In this document: positions 32,803-39,332 of the stretch, piece after piece
Position numbering within the stretch: position 1 is the first letter of the stretch
Layout of the letters: each line of letters begins with the position of its first letter
From: Burkholderiales bacterium
GTDB taxonomy: Bacteria > Pseudomonadota > Gammaproteobacteria > Burkholderiales > Casimicrobiaceae
Direction: 5' to 3'
Assembly: GCA_025927765.1 (NCBI GenBank)
Contig: JAICKU010000031.1
Coordinates: 1 to 39,332, forward strand
DNA: 39,332 nucleotides
Notes under the pieces: model-generated
Seen by the model: only the letters and a program-made list of their open reading frames with translations
What the model was told of the DNA's origin: nothing
Database searches by the model: none
Translations under genes and position numbers: made by a program

Positions 32803-33306
32803 CTACTTCTGCGGCGGCGCGGGGAACTGCACGTACGGGCCCTTCGGCTCCTGCCCCGGGGGCAAGTACGCCGGCGCTTCCTGGCCCGCAGGACCGAGGC
32901 CCTTGATGAAACGATACAGCGCGCGAAGGTCGCTGTCGCTCATCTCGTTCAGGCTCCAGAACGGCATCGGCGGCCGCGCCGTCAGCTTCTTCGCCTTCGC
33001 GACCCATGCGTTCTCGTCGAGGTGCTGCATGTAGAGTCGCAGGTTCACCGGATACGTCGTACCCCACGGACCGCGCCACCCGAGCGCATCGCCGGTCAGC
33101 CATTGCTTCTCGGGCACCTTGCCGCCGGACATGGCAAAGCCCGGCGTATGGCAGTCGTTGCACCCGCCGATCATGGCGATGTAACGCCCGCGCGCATGCG
33201 GATCCTTCTTGGCCTTCATCTCGGTGGCCAGACCGGCGCTCGCCGCAAGCACGAGCGACACGCCAACGACGGCCGCGATGCTTGCGACGCCCAGCATTTG
33301 CTTCAT
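32803..33306 (-). CDS. Periplasmic monohaem cytochrome c
   Basis: 167 residues. Signal peptide or anchor VASIAAVVGVSLVLAASAGLA, then the haem c attachment site Cys49-Asn-Asp-Cys52-His53, preceded by GRYIAMIGG as in class I cytochromes. A Met in the PPMPFWSLNEMSDSDLRALYRFIKGL region is the probable sixth ligand. The C-terminus is Pro-rich (LPPGQEPKGPYVQFPAPPQK). The electron partner is unknown. A GGAGGAGGAG ribosome site precedes ATG 33306. The stop codon lies one base from palindrome D. Confidence 0.9.
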   Translation of the reverse strand: MKQMLGVASIAAVVGVSLVLAASAGLATEMKAKKDPHARGRYIAMIGGCNDCHTPGFAMSGGKVPEKQWLTGDALGWRGPWGTTYPVNLRLYMQHLDENAWVAKAKKLTARPPMPFWSLNEMSDSDLRALYRFIKGLGPAGQEAPAYLPPGQEPKGPYVQFPAPPQK

Positions 33307-33380
33307 CGTCTCCTCCTCCAGGGACCGCGCGGCGCGCGGAATCTGGCGGATAGTGCGGCAATTCGTACAATGCGTGCAAG

Positions 33381-34289
33381 ATGTCCACGATCGAGCTCGC
33401 GACGAAGACTGCACGCATCGCGATCGCGCCGGCGATCGGCGGCGCGATCGCGTCGTTCGCTGTGCACGGCCGTGCCGTGCTGCGCCCGACGCCGGGCGAC
33501 GCCCTCGCCGAAGGCGACGTGCGCCGGATGGCGTGCTTCCCGCTCGTGCCGTACTCGAATCGGATCCGCCATGCACGGCTCCATTTCGACGGCCATGAAT
33601 TCGCGCTCGCACGCAATTTCGGCGCGTCGCTCGAATCGATCCACGGCGTCGGCTGGCAGCGAGCGTGGCGGGTCGCGGACGCCGGCGGCCAACACGCGCT
33701 GCTCGGACTCGTGCACGACGCGCGTGGCGACGATGCGCACGCCTGGCCCTGGCCGTTCGCGGCGTCGCTCGCCTATCGTCTCGTCGACGTCGAGGACGCC
33801 ACGCTGCTCGGCGTCACGCTCTGCATTCGCAACGTCGGCGACGCGCCGTTCCCGTTCGGGCTCGGCTTCCACCCGTACTTCCCGAAGCAACCATCGACGC
33901 GCGTCGGCTTCCGGGCCGACGCCGTGTGGCAAAGCGACGCCGCCGTGATGCCGATCGCGAAGACCGCGATCCCCGGGCCGTGGCACTTCGATCCACCGCG
34001 AGATGTCGGCGAAGCGGTGCTCGACAACGTCTTCACCGGATTCCAGGGCACGGCGCTCGTCGACGATGCGCTCACCGCGCGTCGCATCGACGCCGATACC
34101 GCGCTCGCGTTCGCGGTCGTGTACGCACCCGAGGATCGCGACTTCCTGGCCGTCGAACCGGTCTCGCACGAAACCGACGCGTTCAACCGCGCAGCGCAGG
34201 GGGCGAACGACACCGGTACGCGCGTCCTGCGGCCCGGCGATGCCTTTTCTTGTACGATGCGCATCACCGCACGCGCGCTCGCTCCGTGA
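33381..34289 (+). CDS. Aldose 1-epimerase (mutarotase) family protein
   Basis: 302 residues, beta-sandwich fold of the galactose mutarotase family. Signature elements: GGAIASFAVHGRAVLRP, FPLVPYSNRIRHARLHFDGHEFAL (Asn-Arg substrate contacts), GFHPYFP (catalytic His region) and FLAVEPVSHETDAFN (catalytic Glu). It interconverts alpha and beta anomers of aldoses. First of three sugar-related genes on this strand, 7 bases before the SMP-30 gene, so it is probably co-transcribed with it. Confidence 0.92.
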   Translation: MSTIELATKTARIAIAPAIGGAIASFAVHGRAVLRPTPGDALAEGDVRRMACFPLVPYSNRIRHARLHFDGHEFALARNFGASLESIHGVGWQRAWRVADAGGQHALLGLVHDARGDDAHAWPWPFAASLAYRLVDVEDATLLGVTLCIRNVGDAPFPFGLGFHPYFPKQPSTRVGFRADAVWQSDAAVMPIAKTAIPGPWHFDPPRDVGEAVLDNVFTGFQGTALVDDALTARRIDADTALAFAVVYAPEDRDFLAVEPVSHETDAFNRAAQGANDTGTRVLRPGDAFSCTMRITARALAP

Positions 34290-34296
34290 AGCTTCG

Positions 34297-35178
34297 ATGA
34301 CTGCACACACCGCGTTGTCCTGCGTGCTCGACATCGGCGCGAGCCTCGGCGAATGTCCGCTCTGGTCGGTGCCGGAGCAGGCGCTCTATTGGGTCGACAT
34401 CAACGCGCCGTCGCTCAACCGCTTCGATCCGGCCAGCGGCCGCAACATCGCGATGCCCATGCCCGAGTCGATCGGCAGCTACGCGTTCCGCGAAGGCGGC
34501 GGTTTCGTCGTCGCCCTGCGCAGCGGCATCTGGCTGTGCGACGCGAACGGCAAGCTCGAGCGGCGCGTCGTCGAGGCCCCGTACGACACGCGGCACTATC
34601 GATTCAACGACGGCCGCTGCGGCCCCGACGGTCGCTTCCTGGTGGGCACGATGCACGAGCGCCGCGACACGCCGACGGCCGCGCTGTATCGGATCGATCA
34701 CGATTTCAGGATCACCGAGCTCTTCTCCGGCATGACGATCAGCAACGGGCTCGCGTGGAGTCCCGACGGGCGCACGATGTATCACGCCGATACGCCGACG
34801 CGCACCGTCGAAGCGTTCGACTACGACGCGGCCACCGGGACGCCGAGCCGGCGCCGAGTGTTCTCGCAGTGGACCGGAGCGAACGAGCGTCCCGACGGCG
34901 GCACCACCGACAGCATCGGCCATTACTGGGCCGCGCTCTACGGCGACGGGCGCCTCGTCGAGCTCGCACCCGACGGCACGACGGTGGCCGAGCATCGCCT
35001 GCCCGCGAGGTGCCCGACGATGTGCGCATTCGGCGGCCCGGACCTTCGCACGCTCTACGTCACCACCGCGCGCCAGCATCGCAGCGCCGACGAGCTCGAG
35101 CACTTTCCGCAAAGCGGCGGCATCTTCGCGATGCGCGTCGGCTCGCCCGGACGGCCCGAAGTGCACTTCCGCGGCTGA
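34297..35178 (+). CDS. SMP-30/gluconolactonase-family sugar lactonase
   Basis: 293 residues, six-bladed propeller with one divalent metal. Metal ligands: Glu in SLGECPLWSVPEQALYWVDI, Asn in ISNGLAWSPDGRTMYHADT, and Asp in PDGGTTDSIGHYWAAL (family consensus PDG-x-x-x-D). RFNDGRCGPDGRFLVGTM is the substrate-contact region. It hydrolyses aldonolactones to aldonic acids in oxidative sugar catabolism. The usual VDAEG after PDG is TDSIG here, keeping the Asp. Seven bases after the epimerase and ten before the GH31-like gene. Confidence 0.93.
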   Translation: MTAHTALSCVLDIGASLGECPLWSVPEQALYWVDINAPSLNRFDPASGRNIAMPMPESIGSYAFREGGGFVVALRSGIWLCDANGKLERRVVEAPYDTRHYRFNDGRCGPDGRFLVGTMHERRDTPTAALYRIDHDFRITELFSGMTISNGLAWSPDGRTMYHADTPTRTVEAFDYDAATGTPSRRRVFSQWTGANERPDGGTTDSIGHYWAALYGDGRLVELAPDGTTVAEHRLPARCPTMCAFGGPDLRTLYVTTARQHRSADELEHFPQSGGIFAMRVGSPGRPEVHFRG

Positions 35179-35188
35179 CCTCGCCCCG

Positions 35189-37351
35189 ATGCACATCGAT
35201 TCCGCGGATTACCTGCGCCTCGACGTCGTGCACGCGCTCGGCGCAAGCGCGACCGGGGCGTCGTTCGCGACGTCGAGCGGCGACGTGCTCGATGCGCAAT
35301 GCCATGGCGAGGGCGCGTTCCGCCTGCGCGTCGGGCCGTCGACACGGCCCGATTACGGCCTCGTCGTGTCGCGGCCGAAGGGCTGCACGACGTCGCAGCC
35401 TGCGCCGCAAACGTGGGCGATCGCATGCGGCGACACGCGGCTCGAGATCCGCGCCGCGCCGCTCGACATCCGCCTCCTCTTCAAGGATCGCGTCGTGCTG
35501 CGCTCGGCGACCGACCGCCTGCCTGACGGCAGCTTGCGATTGCCTGCGATCGGTCGGCTTCGCCAGGGCGGCTTGTGGTCGGCGGCGTTCGCGCTCGAAA
35601 GCGGTGAGCCAGTGTACGGGCTCGGCGAGAAATTCGGCGCGCTCGACAAGCGCGGCCAGCTCGTGCATTCGCAGGTGCATGCACCGCAGGACGTCAACAC
35701 CGGACGCTCGGGTGCGAACGTCCCGTTCGCATGGAGTGCCGGCACCGGACACGGGGCGTGGGGCGTGTTCGTGCATACGACCGGCGCGGTGACGCACGCG
35801 CCGGGACACGCGGAATGGTCGCATCGCAGCTACGGCGTGATGGTCGACGACGAAGCGCTCGACCTCTTCGTGTACGCCGGCGCGAACGGCGCATCGATCG
35901 TGGACCTGTTCACCCAAACCACGGGCCGCCCCGCCATCGTGCCGCGCTGGAGCCTGGGCCTCGTGGTCGCGCGGCCGGCTTCCGAGCCGTTCGCACAGAC
36001 GCTCGCAGCCGCCTCGCGCTTGCGCGAGCGGAAGCTGCCCGTCGACACGTTGGTCGTGACCGTACCGGACAACCATTCGTCGCTCACGAAGCTCGCCGCG
36101 CAATCGTTTCACGTGTGCGTGCGCGAAAGCGCGGAGGTGCCGGTCGATTCGCCGCGCTTCCAGGAACTCGCGTCGCACGAATTCCTGCTCGCCACCGACG
36201 AGGGCGAGCCGTACGTCTGCGCGGCCACCGATGGCGTGCGCGGCGACGCCCAGAACGACGAATGGCGCGAGTTCGCGCTCGTCGACTTCACGCATCCCGA
36301 CGCGTTCGCCTGGTGGCGCGACAGTCTCGCCGCGGTGTTCGAGCAAGGCGCCGATGCGATCGCGGCGAGCGGCAGTGCGAGCGTGCCCGGGGATGCGAGC
36401 GTATGGAACGGCGACGCCACCGCGCGGCTGCACAACGTCTATCCGCTGCTCCATGCGCGTTGCATCCAGGAGGCGACCGCCCGCTATCGCGCACCCCGCG
36501 CGGGCGTGCCGGTCGCGCTGTCCGACGCGGGATGGACGGGCAGCCAGCGCTATCCGGTCATCGCGGGCCCGGACGGCCAGCGAGACTGGGAAGGACTCGC
36601 GGCGACGTTGCGCGGCGCGCTTTCATCGGGCATGAGCGGCTTCGCCCTCTGCGCGGCGAGCATCGGCGGCGGCTACGGCGAATCGCAGTCCGCGGAGCTA
36701 TTCGTGCGCTGGCTGCAGGCCGCGATCTTCTTCTCGCACGTGCAACTGCCGGCGAGCGCGGCACGCGAGCCATGGACGTTCGGCGCCGAAGCCGAGGGCG
36801 TGCTGCGCAAGTGGCTCGCGTTGCGGTATCGGCTGATTCCGTATTTCGAGCGCGCGATCGCCAACGCTGCGGCGACCGGCATGCCGCTCGCGCGCGCGAT
36901 GCCGCTCGCGTTCCCCGAGAGCCGGCTCGTGCGCGATTTCGAGACGCAGTTCATGTGCGGCGACGCGCTGCTCGTCGCGCCGATCCTGCGCGACGGCGGC
37001 GAAGGGGACATCGCGCTGCCGCCCGGCGCGTGGTACGACCTCAACACGCGCGCACGCTACACGGGCTCGCAGGTGCTGCGCTATGCGGCGAAGCTCGACC
37101 AGTTTCCCGTGTTCGGACGCGAAGGCTTCGCGCTGCCGCTCGGTCGCGCCGTGCAGCACACCGGCGAAATGCACGACGAGTTGCCGGTCGAAGCGCTGTG
37201 GGTGTTCGGCAGGCCCGCGCATCCGCTCGAAGGATTCCGGCAGGTGAAGATCGAGGCGGACCGCGCCGCGGGGCATGTTGTGCGCGCGATGCTCAACGTC
37301 GACGTGCAGGTGTTCGGCGACGCGCCGGGCATCAGCGTGCTGCCGCTCTGA
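35189..37351 (+). CDS. GH31-like protein with a degenerate active site (predicted pseudo-glycosidase)
   Basis: 720 residues along the full GH31 architecture: N-terminal beta-sandwich (PVYGLGEKFGALDKRGQ), barrel opening (TTGRPAIVPRWSLGL), QGADA...NGDATARLHNVYPLLHA, GWTGSQRYPV, LRGALSSGMSGFALC and C-terminal FETQFMCGDALLVAPIL. Compared by eye with E. coli YicI, catalytic positions are lost: nucleophile Asp in KTDFGE is Ser394, substrate-binding Asp in HFDCFW is Thr291, Arg in RSGW is Asp446, and His-Asp in SHDIGG are Ala490-Ser491. The acid/base Asp (Asp462) remains. No frameshift is seen and the frame is intact, so this is a maintained protein, perhaps sugar-binding. Its TGA shares one base with pdxA's ATG. 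Confidence 0.85.
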   Translation: MHIDSADYLRLDVVHALGASATGASFATSSGDVLDAQCHGEGAFRLRVGPSTRPDYGLVVSRPKGCTTSQPAPQTWAIACGDTRLEIRAAPLDIRLLFKDRVVLRSATDRLPDGSLRLPAIGRLRQGGLWSAAFALESGEPVYGLGEKFGALDKRGQLVHSQVHAPQDVNTGRSGANVPFAWSAGTGHGAWGVFVHTTGAVTHAPGHAEWSHRSYGVMVDDEALDLFVYAGANGASIVDLFTQTTGRPAIVPRWSLGLVVARPASEPFAQTLAAASRLRERKLPVDTLVVTVPDNHSSLTKLAAQSFHVCVRESAEVPVDSPRFQELASHEFLLATDEGEPYVCAATDGVRGDAQNDEWREFALVDFTHPDAFAWWRDSLAAVFEQGADAIAASGSASVPGDASVWNGDATARLHNVYPLLHARCIQEATARYRAPRAGVPVALSDAGWTGSQRYPVIAGPDGQRDWEGLAATLRGALSSGMSGFALCAASIGGGYGESQSAELFVRWLQAAIFFSHVQLPASAAREPWTFGAEAEGVLRKWLALRYRLIPYFERAIANAAATGMPLARAMPLAFPESRLVRDFETQFMCGDALLVAPILRDGGEGDIALPPGAWYDLNTRARYTGSQVLRYAAKLDQFPVFGREGFALPLGRAVQHTGEMHDELPVEALWVFGRPAHPLEGFRQVKIEADRAAGHVVRAMLNVDVQVFGDAPGISVLPL

Positions 37352-38373
37352 TGGCCCGCCATCCGACGATTGCGATCACGAGCGGCGAGCCCGCCGGCAT
37401 CGGCCCCGAGCTCGTCGCGCGCCTCGCAGTTCGGCATCGGGAACAGCCGTTCCCCGCGCGCCTCGTCGTGGTCGGCGATGCACAGCTGCTCGCCGCGCGC
37501 GCGTCGCGCATCGGCCTGTCGCCGCGCTACGTGCCGTACGATCCGCTCGCGTTCGCACCGTACGGCGGCCCGGTCGAAGTGTGGAACGTCCCGCTCGCGG
37601 CGCCCGCGGTTCCCGGGCACCCCGATGCGACGAACGCCCGCAGCGTGCTGTCGATGCTCGAGGCGGCATGCGACGGGTGTGCGACCGGCGCCTTCGCCGC
37701 CCTCGTCACCGCGCCCGTGCAGAAAGGCGTGATCCAGGACGCCGGCATTCCGTTCATCGGCCACACCGAATTCTTCGCCGCGCGCACCGGCACGCCGCGC
37801 GTGGTCATGATGCTCGTGAGCGGTGCGAACGACGATGCGCTGCGCGTCGCGCTCGTCACCACGCACCTGCCGCTGCGCGACGTCCCCGGCGCGATCACGC
37901 ATGAAGCCGTCGTCGAGACCGTCGCGATCGTGCAGCGAGAACTCGCGGCGCGGTTCGGCATTGCACGCGCGCGCATCGGCGTGTGCGGATTGAACCCGCA
38001 TGCCGGCGAGAGCGGGCATCTCGGCGTCGAGGACCGCGACGTGATCGCACCGGCGCTCGCCGCTGCGCGCGAGCGCGGCATCGACGTGACCGGCCCGATG
38101 CCGGCGGATACCGTGTTCGTGCCGGACATCGCGAAACGTTACGACGCGATCGTCGCGATGTATCACGACCAGGGCCTGCCCGTGCTGAAGTCGGTGAGCT
38201 TCGGGCACGGCGTGAACGTGACGCTCGGGCTGCCGTTCGTGCGGACGTCGGTCGATCACGGGACGGCGCTCGATCTCGCCGTGGATGCTGCTCGCGCGGC
38301 GAGCGCCGACGTCGGCAGCCTCGTCACCGCGCTCGAGCTCGCAATCGCGCTCGCCAATCGAACGTCCGATTGA
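37351..38373 (+). CDS. pdxA: 4-hydroxythreonine-4-phosphate dehydrogenase
   Basis: 340 residues. It catalyses NAD-dependent oxidation and decarboxylation of 4-hydroxythreonine phosphate in pyridoxal phosphate synthesis. Signatures: ITSGEPAGIGPEL at the N-terminus, LVTAPVQKGVIQDAGIPFIGHTEFFA (metal His), VCGLNPHAGESGHLGVED (metal His) and VAMYHDQGLPVLK (third metal His). ATG 37351 overlaps the GH31-like stop by one base, and the stop overlaps the ksgA start by four. pdxA-ksgA adjacency is classical; the link to the sugar genes upstream is local. Confidence 0.96.
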   Translation: MARHPTIAITSGEPAGIGPELVARLAVRHREQPFPARLVVVGDAQLLAARASRIGLSPRYVPYDPLAFAPYGGPVEVWNVPLAAPAVPGHPDATNARSVLSMLEAACDGCATGAFAALVTAPVQKGVIQDAGIPFIGHTEFFAARTGTPRVVMMLVSGANDDALRVALVTTHLPLRDVPGAITHEAVVETVAIVQRELAARFGIARARIGVCGLNPHAGESGHLGVEDRDVIAPALAAARERGIDVTGPMPADTVFVPDIAKRYDAIVAMYHDQGLPVLKSVSFGHGVNVTLGLPFVRTSVDHGTALDLAVDAARAASADVGSLVTALELAIALANRTSD

Positions 38374-39182
38374 TCCACGGTCATCGGCCGCGGAAGCGCT
38401 TCGGTCAGAACTTCCTCGCCGACCCGCACTACGCGCAACGAATCGTCGACGCGGTCGACCCCAAACCCGGCGACAACCTCGTCGAGATCGGGCCCGGACT
38501 CGCCGCGCTGACCGATTCACTGATCGAACGCGCGGGCCACATGAGCGCCGTCGAGATCGATCGCGATCTCGCTACGCGCTTGCGGGAACGGTTTGCTGCA
38601 GATCGCCTGACGCTGTACGAAGCCGACGCGCTGACGTTCGACTTCGCGACGCTCGGCGATGCGCTGCGCATCGTCGGCAACCTGCCGTACAACATCAGCT
38701 CGCCGCTGCTGTTCCACCTCGCGACGTACGAAGCGCGGCTGCGCGACATTCACGTGATGCTGCAGCGCGAGGTGGTGGCGCGGATGACGGCATCGCCCGC
38801 GACGGCGGATTACGGACGGCTGTCGGTGATGCTGCAGGCCCGCTTTCGCGTGACACGATTGTTCACCGTCCCCGCGGGCGCCTTCCGGCCGGCGCCGAAG
38901 GTCGAATCGGCCGTGGCGCGGCTCGCGCCGTTGCGTGAGTCGCGTCCCGTGATCGTGGACGAAGCGCTGTTCGCGCGCATCGTGGCGGCGGCGTTCGGCC
39001 AGCGGCGGAAGACGTTGCGCAATGCGCTGTCCGCGCTCGTGGACGAATCGGCGCTGCGATCGGCAGGCATCGACCCGGGCTCGCGCGGCGAGACGCTGTC
39101 GGTCGACGATTACGTGCGGCTGACCAACGCGCTTGCAGGACCGACCGGACCGCGGGGCGCTACTTCACCGCCCCGACGGTAA
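38370..39182 (+). CDS. ksgA: 16S rRNA (adenine1518-N6/adenine1519-N6) dimethyltransferase
   Basis: 270 residues from a TTG start. It dimethylates A1518 and A1519 in helix 45 of 16S rRNA late in 30S assembly. Motifs: HRPRKRFGQNFLADPHYAQ (N-terminus), VEIGPGLAALT (SAM motif I), VEIDRDLATRL, NLPYNISSPLLFHL (catalytic motif IV) and RFRVTRLFTVPAGAFRPAPKVESAV. TTG 38370 overlaps the pdxA stop (TTGA) and gives the expected short N-terminus (IHGHRPRKRFGQ); no better start is available. No ribosome site is visible, so translation probably depends on coupling to pdxA. Confidence 0.96.
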   Translation: MIHGHRPRKRFGQNFLADPHYAQRIVDAVDPKPGDNLVEIGPGLAALTDSLIERAGHMSAVEIDRDLATRLRERFAADRLTLYEADALTFDFATLGDALRIVGNLPYNISSPLLFHLATYEARLRDIHVMLQREVVARMTASPATADYGRLSVMLQARFRVTRLFTVPAGAFRPAPKVESAVARLAPLRESRPVIVDEALFARIVAAAFGQRRKTLRNALSALVDESALRSAGIDPGSRGETLSVDDYVRLTNALAGPTGPRGATSPPRR

Positions 39183-39216
39183 ACCCCGCGACGAACCGGT
39201 CGACGAACGCGCGTTG
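39160..39216 (-). pseudogene. Possible 3' remnant of a carbohydrate ABC-transporter permease
   Basis: The minus strand reads RAFVDRFVAGFTVGAVK then TAG, very like the C-terminus of MalG-type sugar permeases (consensus R-x-x-V-x-G-x-T-x-G-A-V-K). Following the frame upstream gives Arg/Ser-rich sequence with no ATG, GTG or TTG before a stop at the window edge, while another minus-strand gene ends at 39278. The permease body is therefore missing. The match is short, so confidence is limited. Confidence 0.4.
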
Positions 39217-39277
39217 TCGTGCCGATGTGACCGGATGCTGCCGCGTTGGATTCTTGCTTCTGCGGCAATGCTCCGTT

Positions 39278-39332
39278 TCAAATGAAGAGGCGTGTGGCCG
39301 AGCTCTCGAGCCACGGCACGATCGTGATCAGC
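39278..39332 (-). CDS. C-terminal end of an unidentified protein (partial)
   Basis: The minus strand reads LITIVPWLESSATRLFI and then TGA at 39278-39280. Only 17 residues are visible; no family can be assigned. It is called because no other explanation fits the strand and the permease-like tail lies in a different frame. Confidence 0.3.
   Translation of the reverse strand, partial: LITIVPWLESSATRLFI

Follow-up and report, generated by a model that had tools for sequence, protein, structure and literature searches.

A gene in a 39,332-nt stretch of contig JAICKU010000031.1 (GCA_025927765.1, Casimicrobiaceae), which as a whole is called the window here and supplies the coordinates, encodes a 720-residue protein of glycoside hydrolase family 31 (GH31) in which the catalytic nucleophile and the residues of the -1 subsite are replaced. 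We give a probability of roughly 0.55 to this protein being a GH31 pseudoenzyme that is kept for a function not using the active site. With less assurance, and at slightly under even odds, we propose that this GH31 lineage of the order has an unrecognised non-catalytic function, which would have outlived the chemistry several times in the window's taxonomic family and once in a clade of a second family, f4.

The frame opens with an ATG at 35189, closes with a TGA at 37349-37351 and is free of stops inside. Its product scores above the Pfam cut-offs for the GH31 barrel (1.6e-45), C-terminal (2.1e-18) and N-terminal (1.6e-11) domains, which upholds the intact 720-residue frame with GH31 landmarks given in a preliminary description of this DNA, and to judge by fold and sequence the protein is GH31 in all three domains. 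YicI, the E. coli alpha-xylosidase that has these domains in common with it, was its top PDB sequence match, with two aligned stretches within residues 136-656, and the protein scored 278.7 bits against NF007940 (YicI-type alpha-xylosidase), below the curated cut-off of 606. Structure predictions from alignments of 2 and 4 rows had a mean predicted local distance difference test (pLDDT) score of 30.7 and 40.4, respectively, and were unusable. The features of the gene are as follows, with the codons of residues 394, 462 and 521 computed from the start at 35189.

35189 to 37351, forward strand: GH31-fold protein without nucleophile, 720 aa (frame, Pfam and YicI alignment), with an N-terminal mutarotase-like domain at residues 38-200, the barrel at 248-553, a C-proximal domain at 564-646 and a C-distal part at ~647-720.
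36059 to 36064, forward strand: codons T291-V292, between which ~19 residues present in orthologues are deleted in frame (alignment).
36368 to 36370, forward strand: codon of Ser394, the nucleophile place (YicI D416; alignment).
36572 to 36574, forward strand: codon of Asp462, the acid/base place (YicI D482), kept (alignment).
36749 to 36751, forward strand: codon of Pro521, the place of the -1 subsite His (YicI H540; alignment).

Unlike YicI, the window protein has S394 at the position of the nucleophile D416 in the alignment of the two, and the -1 subsite set of active GH31 enzymes (D306, R466, D511 and H540) is replaced throughout, by T291, D446, S491 and P521, respectively. Likewise, W345 and K414 have become R312 and A392, and the H510-D511 pair aligns with A490-S491, the H510 position being S or T in canonical rows of the window's family. 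The acid/base Asp (D482) is retained as D462. Another GH31 enzyme is reported to have, apart from its catalytic pair, two Asp, one Trp and one His in the -1 subsite (PMC9061262), among which we infer the equivalents of YicI D306, D511 and H540. All the replacements named in the preliminary description (Ser394, Thr291, Asp446 and Ala490-Ser491) are right in this alignment, and its statement that loss was limited to the active site holds to the extent that changes are concentrated there; however, in contrast to YicI, a barrel segment is also gone, leaving an in-frame gap of ~19 residues between T291 and V292 where relatives have a strand and loop after D306. The damage is therefore wider than first reported, with one catalytic residue retained. 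What marks the protein as a pseudoenzyme, on the evidence of sequence, is that the nucleophile and subsite are gone (the acid/base residue being kept), canonical orthologues occupy the same locus, and the protein is maintained by selection. The replacements exceed what chance would give. As controls we used 26 other GH31 loci of the order (L095-L109 and L111-L121, including five in the window's family), having dropped L110, a second copy in the window genome on contig C93, and left out L134 and L135, which had no match to YicI, to the G008 protein or to the window protein. D416, D482, R466, D511 and H540 were kept in 26/26 and D306 was aligned to Ser in 7/26, although these controls lean to canonical members because they were drawn from the best-scoring PF01055 hits.

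The window's family comprises 64 genomes in 7 genera, with a GH31 match in 48, including 22/22 of the window's genus, and we compared 40 regions from 38 of these 48 (ten genomes of genus g2 were not included). A locus orthologue was defined as a GH31 gene adjoining at least one of a mutarotase, a lactonase and pdxA, which gave 31 genomes, the window's included: 21 in its genus and 6 and 4 in two others. PdxA is encoded next to GH31 in 28/31, and in the other three (G021, G029 and G035) the contig breaks off within the gene or right next to it. Rows missing the nucleophile Asp or the acid/base Asp were classed as dead (17) and the remaining 14 as live. The nucleophile Asp is missing in 13/31, its place being taken by Ser (the window, G019 and G039), Thr (G003 and G007), Gly (G005, G012 and G017), Ala (G013 and G015) or Glu (G006, G011 and G018, all three also without the acid/base Asp and R466). 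Four further orthologues (G001, G010, G025 and G045) keep the nucleophile and have lost the acid/base Asp; the other 14 keep the nucleophile, with the acid/base stretch of G029 uncovered. In total the acid/base Asp is missing in 11 of the 17 dead rows, including the three Glu rows, and kept in the window, G005, G012, G013, G015 and G017. Two loci present the mirror case of the window (G025, L021; G045, L030), with the nucleophile Asp kept and the acid/base Asp, Arg and His gone. All but one of the 17 dead rows have full length, at 720-759 aa; the exception, G011, is split at contig ends, and its overlapping pieces (L055 and L056) disagree at the nucleophile place, E versus G, perhaps reflecting two strains or an assembly fault. 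In G029 (L067) and G399 (L183 and L189) GH31 matches fall in several pieces or frames, as real breaks or assembly errors. Homologues with Ser at the nucleophile place, for which a search had been suggested, occur in G019 and G039; pocket residues are not constant among dead lineages.

Maximum-likelihood trees were built from 39 rows, and again from 33 once the long outgroup rows (five g2 rows and G027) had been removed, in both cases with active-site columns excluded and the fragments G011x and G020x left out. The 39-row tree required 6 changes of nucleophile state, all 6 forced by well-supported branches, and the 33-row tree gave the same number; counting loss of either catalytic Asp, there were 7. 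Dead rows are nested among live ones, with the window, G018, G011, G005, G012 and G017 sister to live G021, and the other dead groupings being G003 with G007, G006 with G013, G019 and G015 (together with G001, which keeps the Asp) and G039. Such counts cannot separate loss from regain, and for G019, G015 and G001 one loss plus one regain costs the same as two losses, although regain of a nucleophile there seems unlikely. The trees support several independent losses of the pocket in the window's family.

We next estimated the ratio of nonsynonymous to synonymous substitution rates (dN/dS, omega) with a custom-made branch codon model, run on small subsets of rows. For G003/G007, omega was 0.105 on the background (which includes G010, a row lacking the acid/base Asp), 0.273 on the stem and 0.087 in the crown; omega = 1 was rejected for the crown (twice the log-likelihood difference, 2 delta lnL, 409) and the stem (15.2), and equality of crown and background was not rejected. 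In the window's clade the values were 0.085 for the background, 0.151 for stems, 0.088 for the dead tips G005, G012 and G018, and 0.203 for the window; omega = 1 was rejected for the window branch (2 delta lnL 47.6) and the dead tips (550), and equality of the dead tips with background was again not rejected. Omega = 1 was also rejected for G006 (0.23) and G013 (0.11), by 48.8 and 41.2. Simple counting of dN/dS gave 0.106 for G012-G017, 0.153-0.163 for G005 with G012 and G017, 0.195 for G003-G007 and 0.20-0.24 for G018 with two G011 pieces, compared with 0.364 for G001-G015, 0.378 for G015-G019, 0.325-0.39 for pairs with the window and 0.085-0.234 for seven live pairs. In the same pairs pdxA gave 0.13-0.21 for close dead genomes, 0.27 for G001-G015, 0.38 for G015-G019 and 0.26-0.30 for the window, so that the close dead GH31 pairs (0.11-0.24) resemble their pdxA neighbour. 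The dead proteins are thus constrained, but several dead branches, the window's included, show more relaxation than live branches do. This could reflect a burst of change once the residues had been lost, with constraint returning later (compare the stem and crown of G003/G007), or else partial decay of the window copy. The selected non-hydrolytic role put forward in the preliminary description is supported by the window branch (omega 0.20, neutrality rejected) and by the 6 nucleophile-state changes.

The distribution of constraint was examined by column entropy in 16 dead and 13 live rows (G017, 96% identical to G012, and G029 were dropped). Dead and live values were 1.19 vs 0.99 for residues 1-135, 1.36 vs 0.77, 1.96 vs 0.92 and 1.05 vs 0.51 for barrel residues 248-340, 330-362 and 363-560, 0.64 vs 0.55 for the C-proximal domain (561-646) and 1.33 vs 1.21 for residues 647-720. 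Release is regional, strongest in the barrel, with the C-proximal domain best held. Live rows have 306 invariant columns, of which 129 are invariant in dead rows as well, 230 are retained by the window protein and 55 fall below 70% in dead rows, including D416, F417, R466, W479, D482, D511 and H540. Only 6 columns are conserved in dead rows yet variable in live ones, none at a catalytic position.

These patterns bear on whether the protein could be a ligand sensor, signalling the presence of a sugar or some other small ligand that it binds in a reshaped pocket. The fold is kept by sequence, and some dead rows retain part of the pocket (D306, W345, R466 and D482 in G005, G012 and G017; D306, R466, D482 and H540 in G013). 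However, none of D306, W345, K414, R466, D511 and H540 remains in the window protein and part of its barrel is deleted, pocket residues vary among dead lineages, and a role through the old pocket is argued against because the barrel is the most released part. The sugar-sensing or lectin-like function proposed earlier is not supported for this protein in so far as it relied on the old pocket, sensing sugar that way is unlikely in the window protein, and we regard a ligand sensor of any kind as unlikely. A different chemistry had likewise been suggested. It, or a weak residual chemistry, would have Asp462 as a lone acid or base in transfer, phosphorolysis or lyase reactions, and the retained D462 speaks for it, as does the kept acid/base Asp of G005, G012, G013, G015 and G017. 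Glycosynthases are made by replacing the nucleophile with Ala, Gly or Ser, which counts in the same direction. So does the Glu at the nucleophile place of G006, G011 and G018, given that an insect GH31 with Glu is described, in the available portion of its report, as having a catalytic nucleophile (PMC8063059). Against this, 11/17 dead rows, including all three with Glu, have lost the acid/base Asp, and none of the 6 columns newly conserved in dead rows is catalytic; no result points to such chemistry, which we consider quite improbable.

The GH31 gene stands third in a single-strand row of mutarotase, SMP-30 lactonase, GH31, pdxA and ksgA genes, and its neighbours are as follows.

33381 to 34289, forward strand: aldose 1-epimerase (mutarotase; Pfam PF01263 1.3e-36, alignment).
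34297 to 35178, forward strand: SMP-30/gluconolactonase-type lactonase (Pfam PF08450 3.4e-84, alignment; start read from the sequence).
37351 to 38373, forward strand: pdxA (TIGR00557 above cut-off).
38370 to 39182, forward strand: ksgA, 16S rRNA adenine dimethyltransferase (Pfam PF00398 1.9e-63; start approximate).

By eye, the catalytic motifs of the mutarotase and the metal-site motifs of the lactonase appear intact, and an operon made up wholly of pseudoenzymes is disfavoured on that account. A scan for sigma-70-type promoters over 33000-39332 gave 0 sites against 0.3 expected by shuffling and carries little weight. The operon with mutarotase and lactonase that was described at the outset is right for the window, but both genes are often gone at dead loci where GH31 stays: the mutarotase from 11/16 scored dead loci vs 1/12 scored live (Fisher p 0.002, kinship ignored), and the lactonase from 7/17 vs 0/12 (Fisher p 0.023, kinship ignored). 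Five tree-independent pairs, too few to decide, showed the same direction or no difference and never the opposite, and an association of GH31 death with the disappearance of these genes from the locus is suggestive only. Because both are often absent from dead loci at which GH31 remains, neither is likely to account for what it does now, and the picture is of a sugar pathway that decays as the GH31 protein persists. For comparison, a canonical relative in G248 (family f23) lies in a sugar cassette with an ATP-binding cassette (ABC) transporter, a lactonase and a short-chain dehydrogenase.

A PF01055 search of 20 chosen genomes, 16 of them with a dead locus (G001 was not among them), found one GH31 in 17/20, two in G000 and G008, and two pieces at contig ends in G011. 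In the window genome the second GH31 (contig C93, L035:7751-9757) is canonical, has 46-49% identity and adjoins ABC transporter genes. Such a pair could allow the dead protein to assemble with an active paralogue and regulate it, and YicI-type GH31 enzymes form hexamers according to the part of the source available (PMC9061262). However, GH31 is the sole copy in 14/16 dead-locus genomes searched, with the G011 gene split over two contigs, and a pseudo-subunit role is very unlikely. An effect purely in cis, in which an open frame would serve to bring ribosomes to the pdxA start, would suit the one-base overlap of the GH31 stop and the pdxA ATG at 37351 (TGATG, read in the window only) and the position of pdxA beside the gene in 28/31. 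Translational coupling, though, keeps a frame open and not an amino-acid sequence, omega is ~0.09 in two dead groups, and in f4 the GH31 gene sits downstream of mnmC; we find this explanation hardly credible.

Loss of pocket residues was also seen in family f4. When 300 genomes of the order were searched with PF01055, 36 gave a match, in 35 cases over the cut-off, and eight f4 genomes among the matches lack the control-type residue set (D416, D482, R466, D511 and H540). Searching f4 with an f4 protein gave a match in 243/268 genomes and 40/43 genera; 7/243 were weak matches in genus g10, three of which were examined and proved to be a different GH31 keeping these five residues. The f4 gene is absent from the nine 0.7-0.9 Mb genomes shown, other g10 genomes and a few larger ones (for example G380 and G523), and present at 1.6 Mb. 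This GH31 (e.g. L126:5346-7553), which lacks most of the pocket, comes near to being a core gene of f4. Among 56 rows (G504, G490, G493, G461b and G399b were dropped), D306 and W345 are each kept in 1, H540 and D511 in 3, D482 in 5 and R466 in 6. His stands at H510 in 55/56 (the exception being G115) and Gln at H540 in 39/56, which can be counted for the ligand sensor considered above. G461b, a second copy in an f4 genome, keeps D416, D482, R466 and D511, with Asn at H540. In a quick tree of 27 rows with long branches the f4 rows form one clade separate from the window's locus, so that one event could account for their pocket loss. In 56/57 f4 loci (one genome counted twice) the GH31 gene is preceded on its own strand by an mnmC-like gene, and dN/dS was 0.06-0.17 in nine pairs.

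At its C-terminal end the f4 protein hardly varies over 45-75 residues (e.g. L126:7320-7553). With G115 and G564 left out, C-distal entropy was 0.40 in 25 f4 rows, compared with 0.99-1.92 elsewhere in the same rows and 2.02 in a more diverse live set. Over the last 45 codons, 15 pairs had a nonsynonymous difference per site (pN) of 0.00-0.10 and a synonymous one (pS) of 0.29-0.92, with pS of 0.29-0.82 in the rest of the gene; the constraint is on protein and not DNA, because amino acids are near-fixed and synonymous change is normal. The tail alone matched no Pfam family and no PDB chain.

The ancestor of the window's lineage is taken to be a canonical YicI-like glycosidase because canonical orthologues share the locus and surround the dead rows on the tree. 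We suggest that the gene was placed before pdxA-ksgA in an ancestor of the three genera and that the ancestral protein may already have been bifunctional, combining hydrolysis with a second role. The sugar pathway would then have decayed, with mutarotase and lactonase often gone from the locus, and the pocket been released. What remained would serve in structure or regulation, most likely as a multimeric scaffold binding another protein through beta domains outside the pocket. The second role is probably that of a protein-binding scaffold or regulator, and candidate partners are encoded next door, namely PdxA and KsgA in the window's family and MnmC in f4.

Several results weigh against a pseudoenzyme kept for such a function. 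The omega of the window branch is 2.3x that of the dead tips (0.203 vs 0.088; equality rejected by 15.8), and a three-taxon count, which is cruder than the codon model, gave 0.58-0.68 for the window (bootstrap 0.42-0.93), 0.57 for G003, 0.64 for G007, 0.73 for G006 (0.56-1.02) and 0.77 for G039 (0.51-1.39). The same count gave 0.46 for G013 and G025, 0.40 for G018, 0.34 for G015, 0.31 for G019 and 0.15 for G012, with 0.13-0.25 for live G021, G009 and G004. With its raised omega and lost barrel segment, the window copy may be in partial decay. Some release is also seen in the N-terminal domain (136-247), with entropy 0.85 in dead and 0.53 in live rows. A quick tree of 8 dead and 5 live locus rows plus the long f4 branches needs 3 nucleophile changes, of which well-supported branches force 1, and joins G003 with G039, although we trust the fuller 39- and 33-row trees more. 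In f4 an Asp occupies the D416 place in 36/56 rows and the near-invariant tail is not common to the C-distal part of the window protein; since f4 mostly keeps the nucleophile Asp and the tail is unshared, the two families need not share a function.

The raised omega, by codon model and by counting, and the 19-residue deletion could be explained if the gene were a relic under decay, its frame persisting through high GC and recent loss. However, omega = 1 was rejected on the window branch and on the tested dead branches in three subsets, 16/17 dead rows are full length, and GH31 is matched in 22/22 genomes of the genus and found at the locus in 21. For the dead clades a relic is strongly disfavoured, and for the window gene we hold it to be improbable, with a maintained pseudoenzyme remaining our preferred reading.

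The closest precedent for repeated loss with a kept second function is that of the fungal pseudonucleases Ssd1/Dis3L2, for which the accessible text reports active-site mutations at least 4 times in active orthologues, a conserved non-catalytic function and a bifunctional ancestor (PMC8097288). That system is an unrelated eukaryotic nuclease whose second function is described there as RNA binding, whereas that of the window GH31 is only inferred. Beetle glycoside hydrolase pseudoenzymes, as presented in the available part of their report, lost catalysis by way of gene duplication (PMC6549527). Like them, the window GH31 would be a member of a carbohydrate-active enzyme family without catalysis; unlike them, the orthologues at this one locus have been converted in place, mostly with no second GH31. 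Titles and abstract openings, mostly of papers free of subscription, yielded no catalytically dead bacterial GH31, which is weak evidence. Separately, three contigs filed as viral carry YicI-type genes, and L089 (IMGVR_UViG_2609460218_000014) holds bacterial DNA, because its protein matches E. coli YicI with 100% identity across residues 1-771.

Pseudoenzymes are often ascribed to gene duplication, whereas here orthologues at one locus, most of them sole copies, have been converted in place repeatedly, with the protein staying under selection. Live and dead orthologues side by side amount to a natural experiment that separates a non-catalytic role from catalysis. Genes annotated as alpha-glucosidase or alpha-xylosidase in these bacteria may lack such activity, and most f4 genomes carry one.

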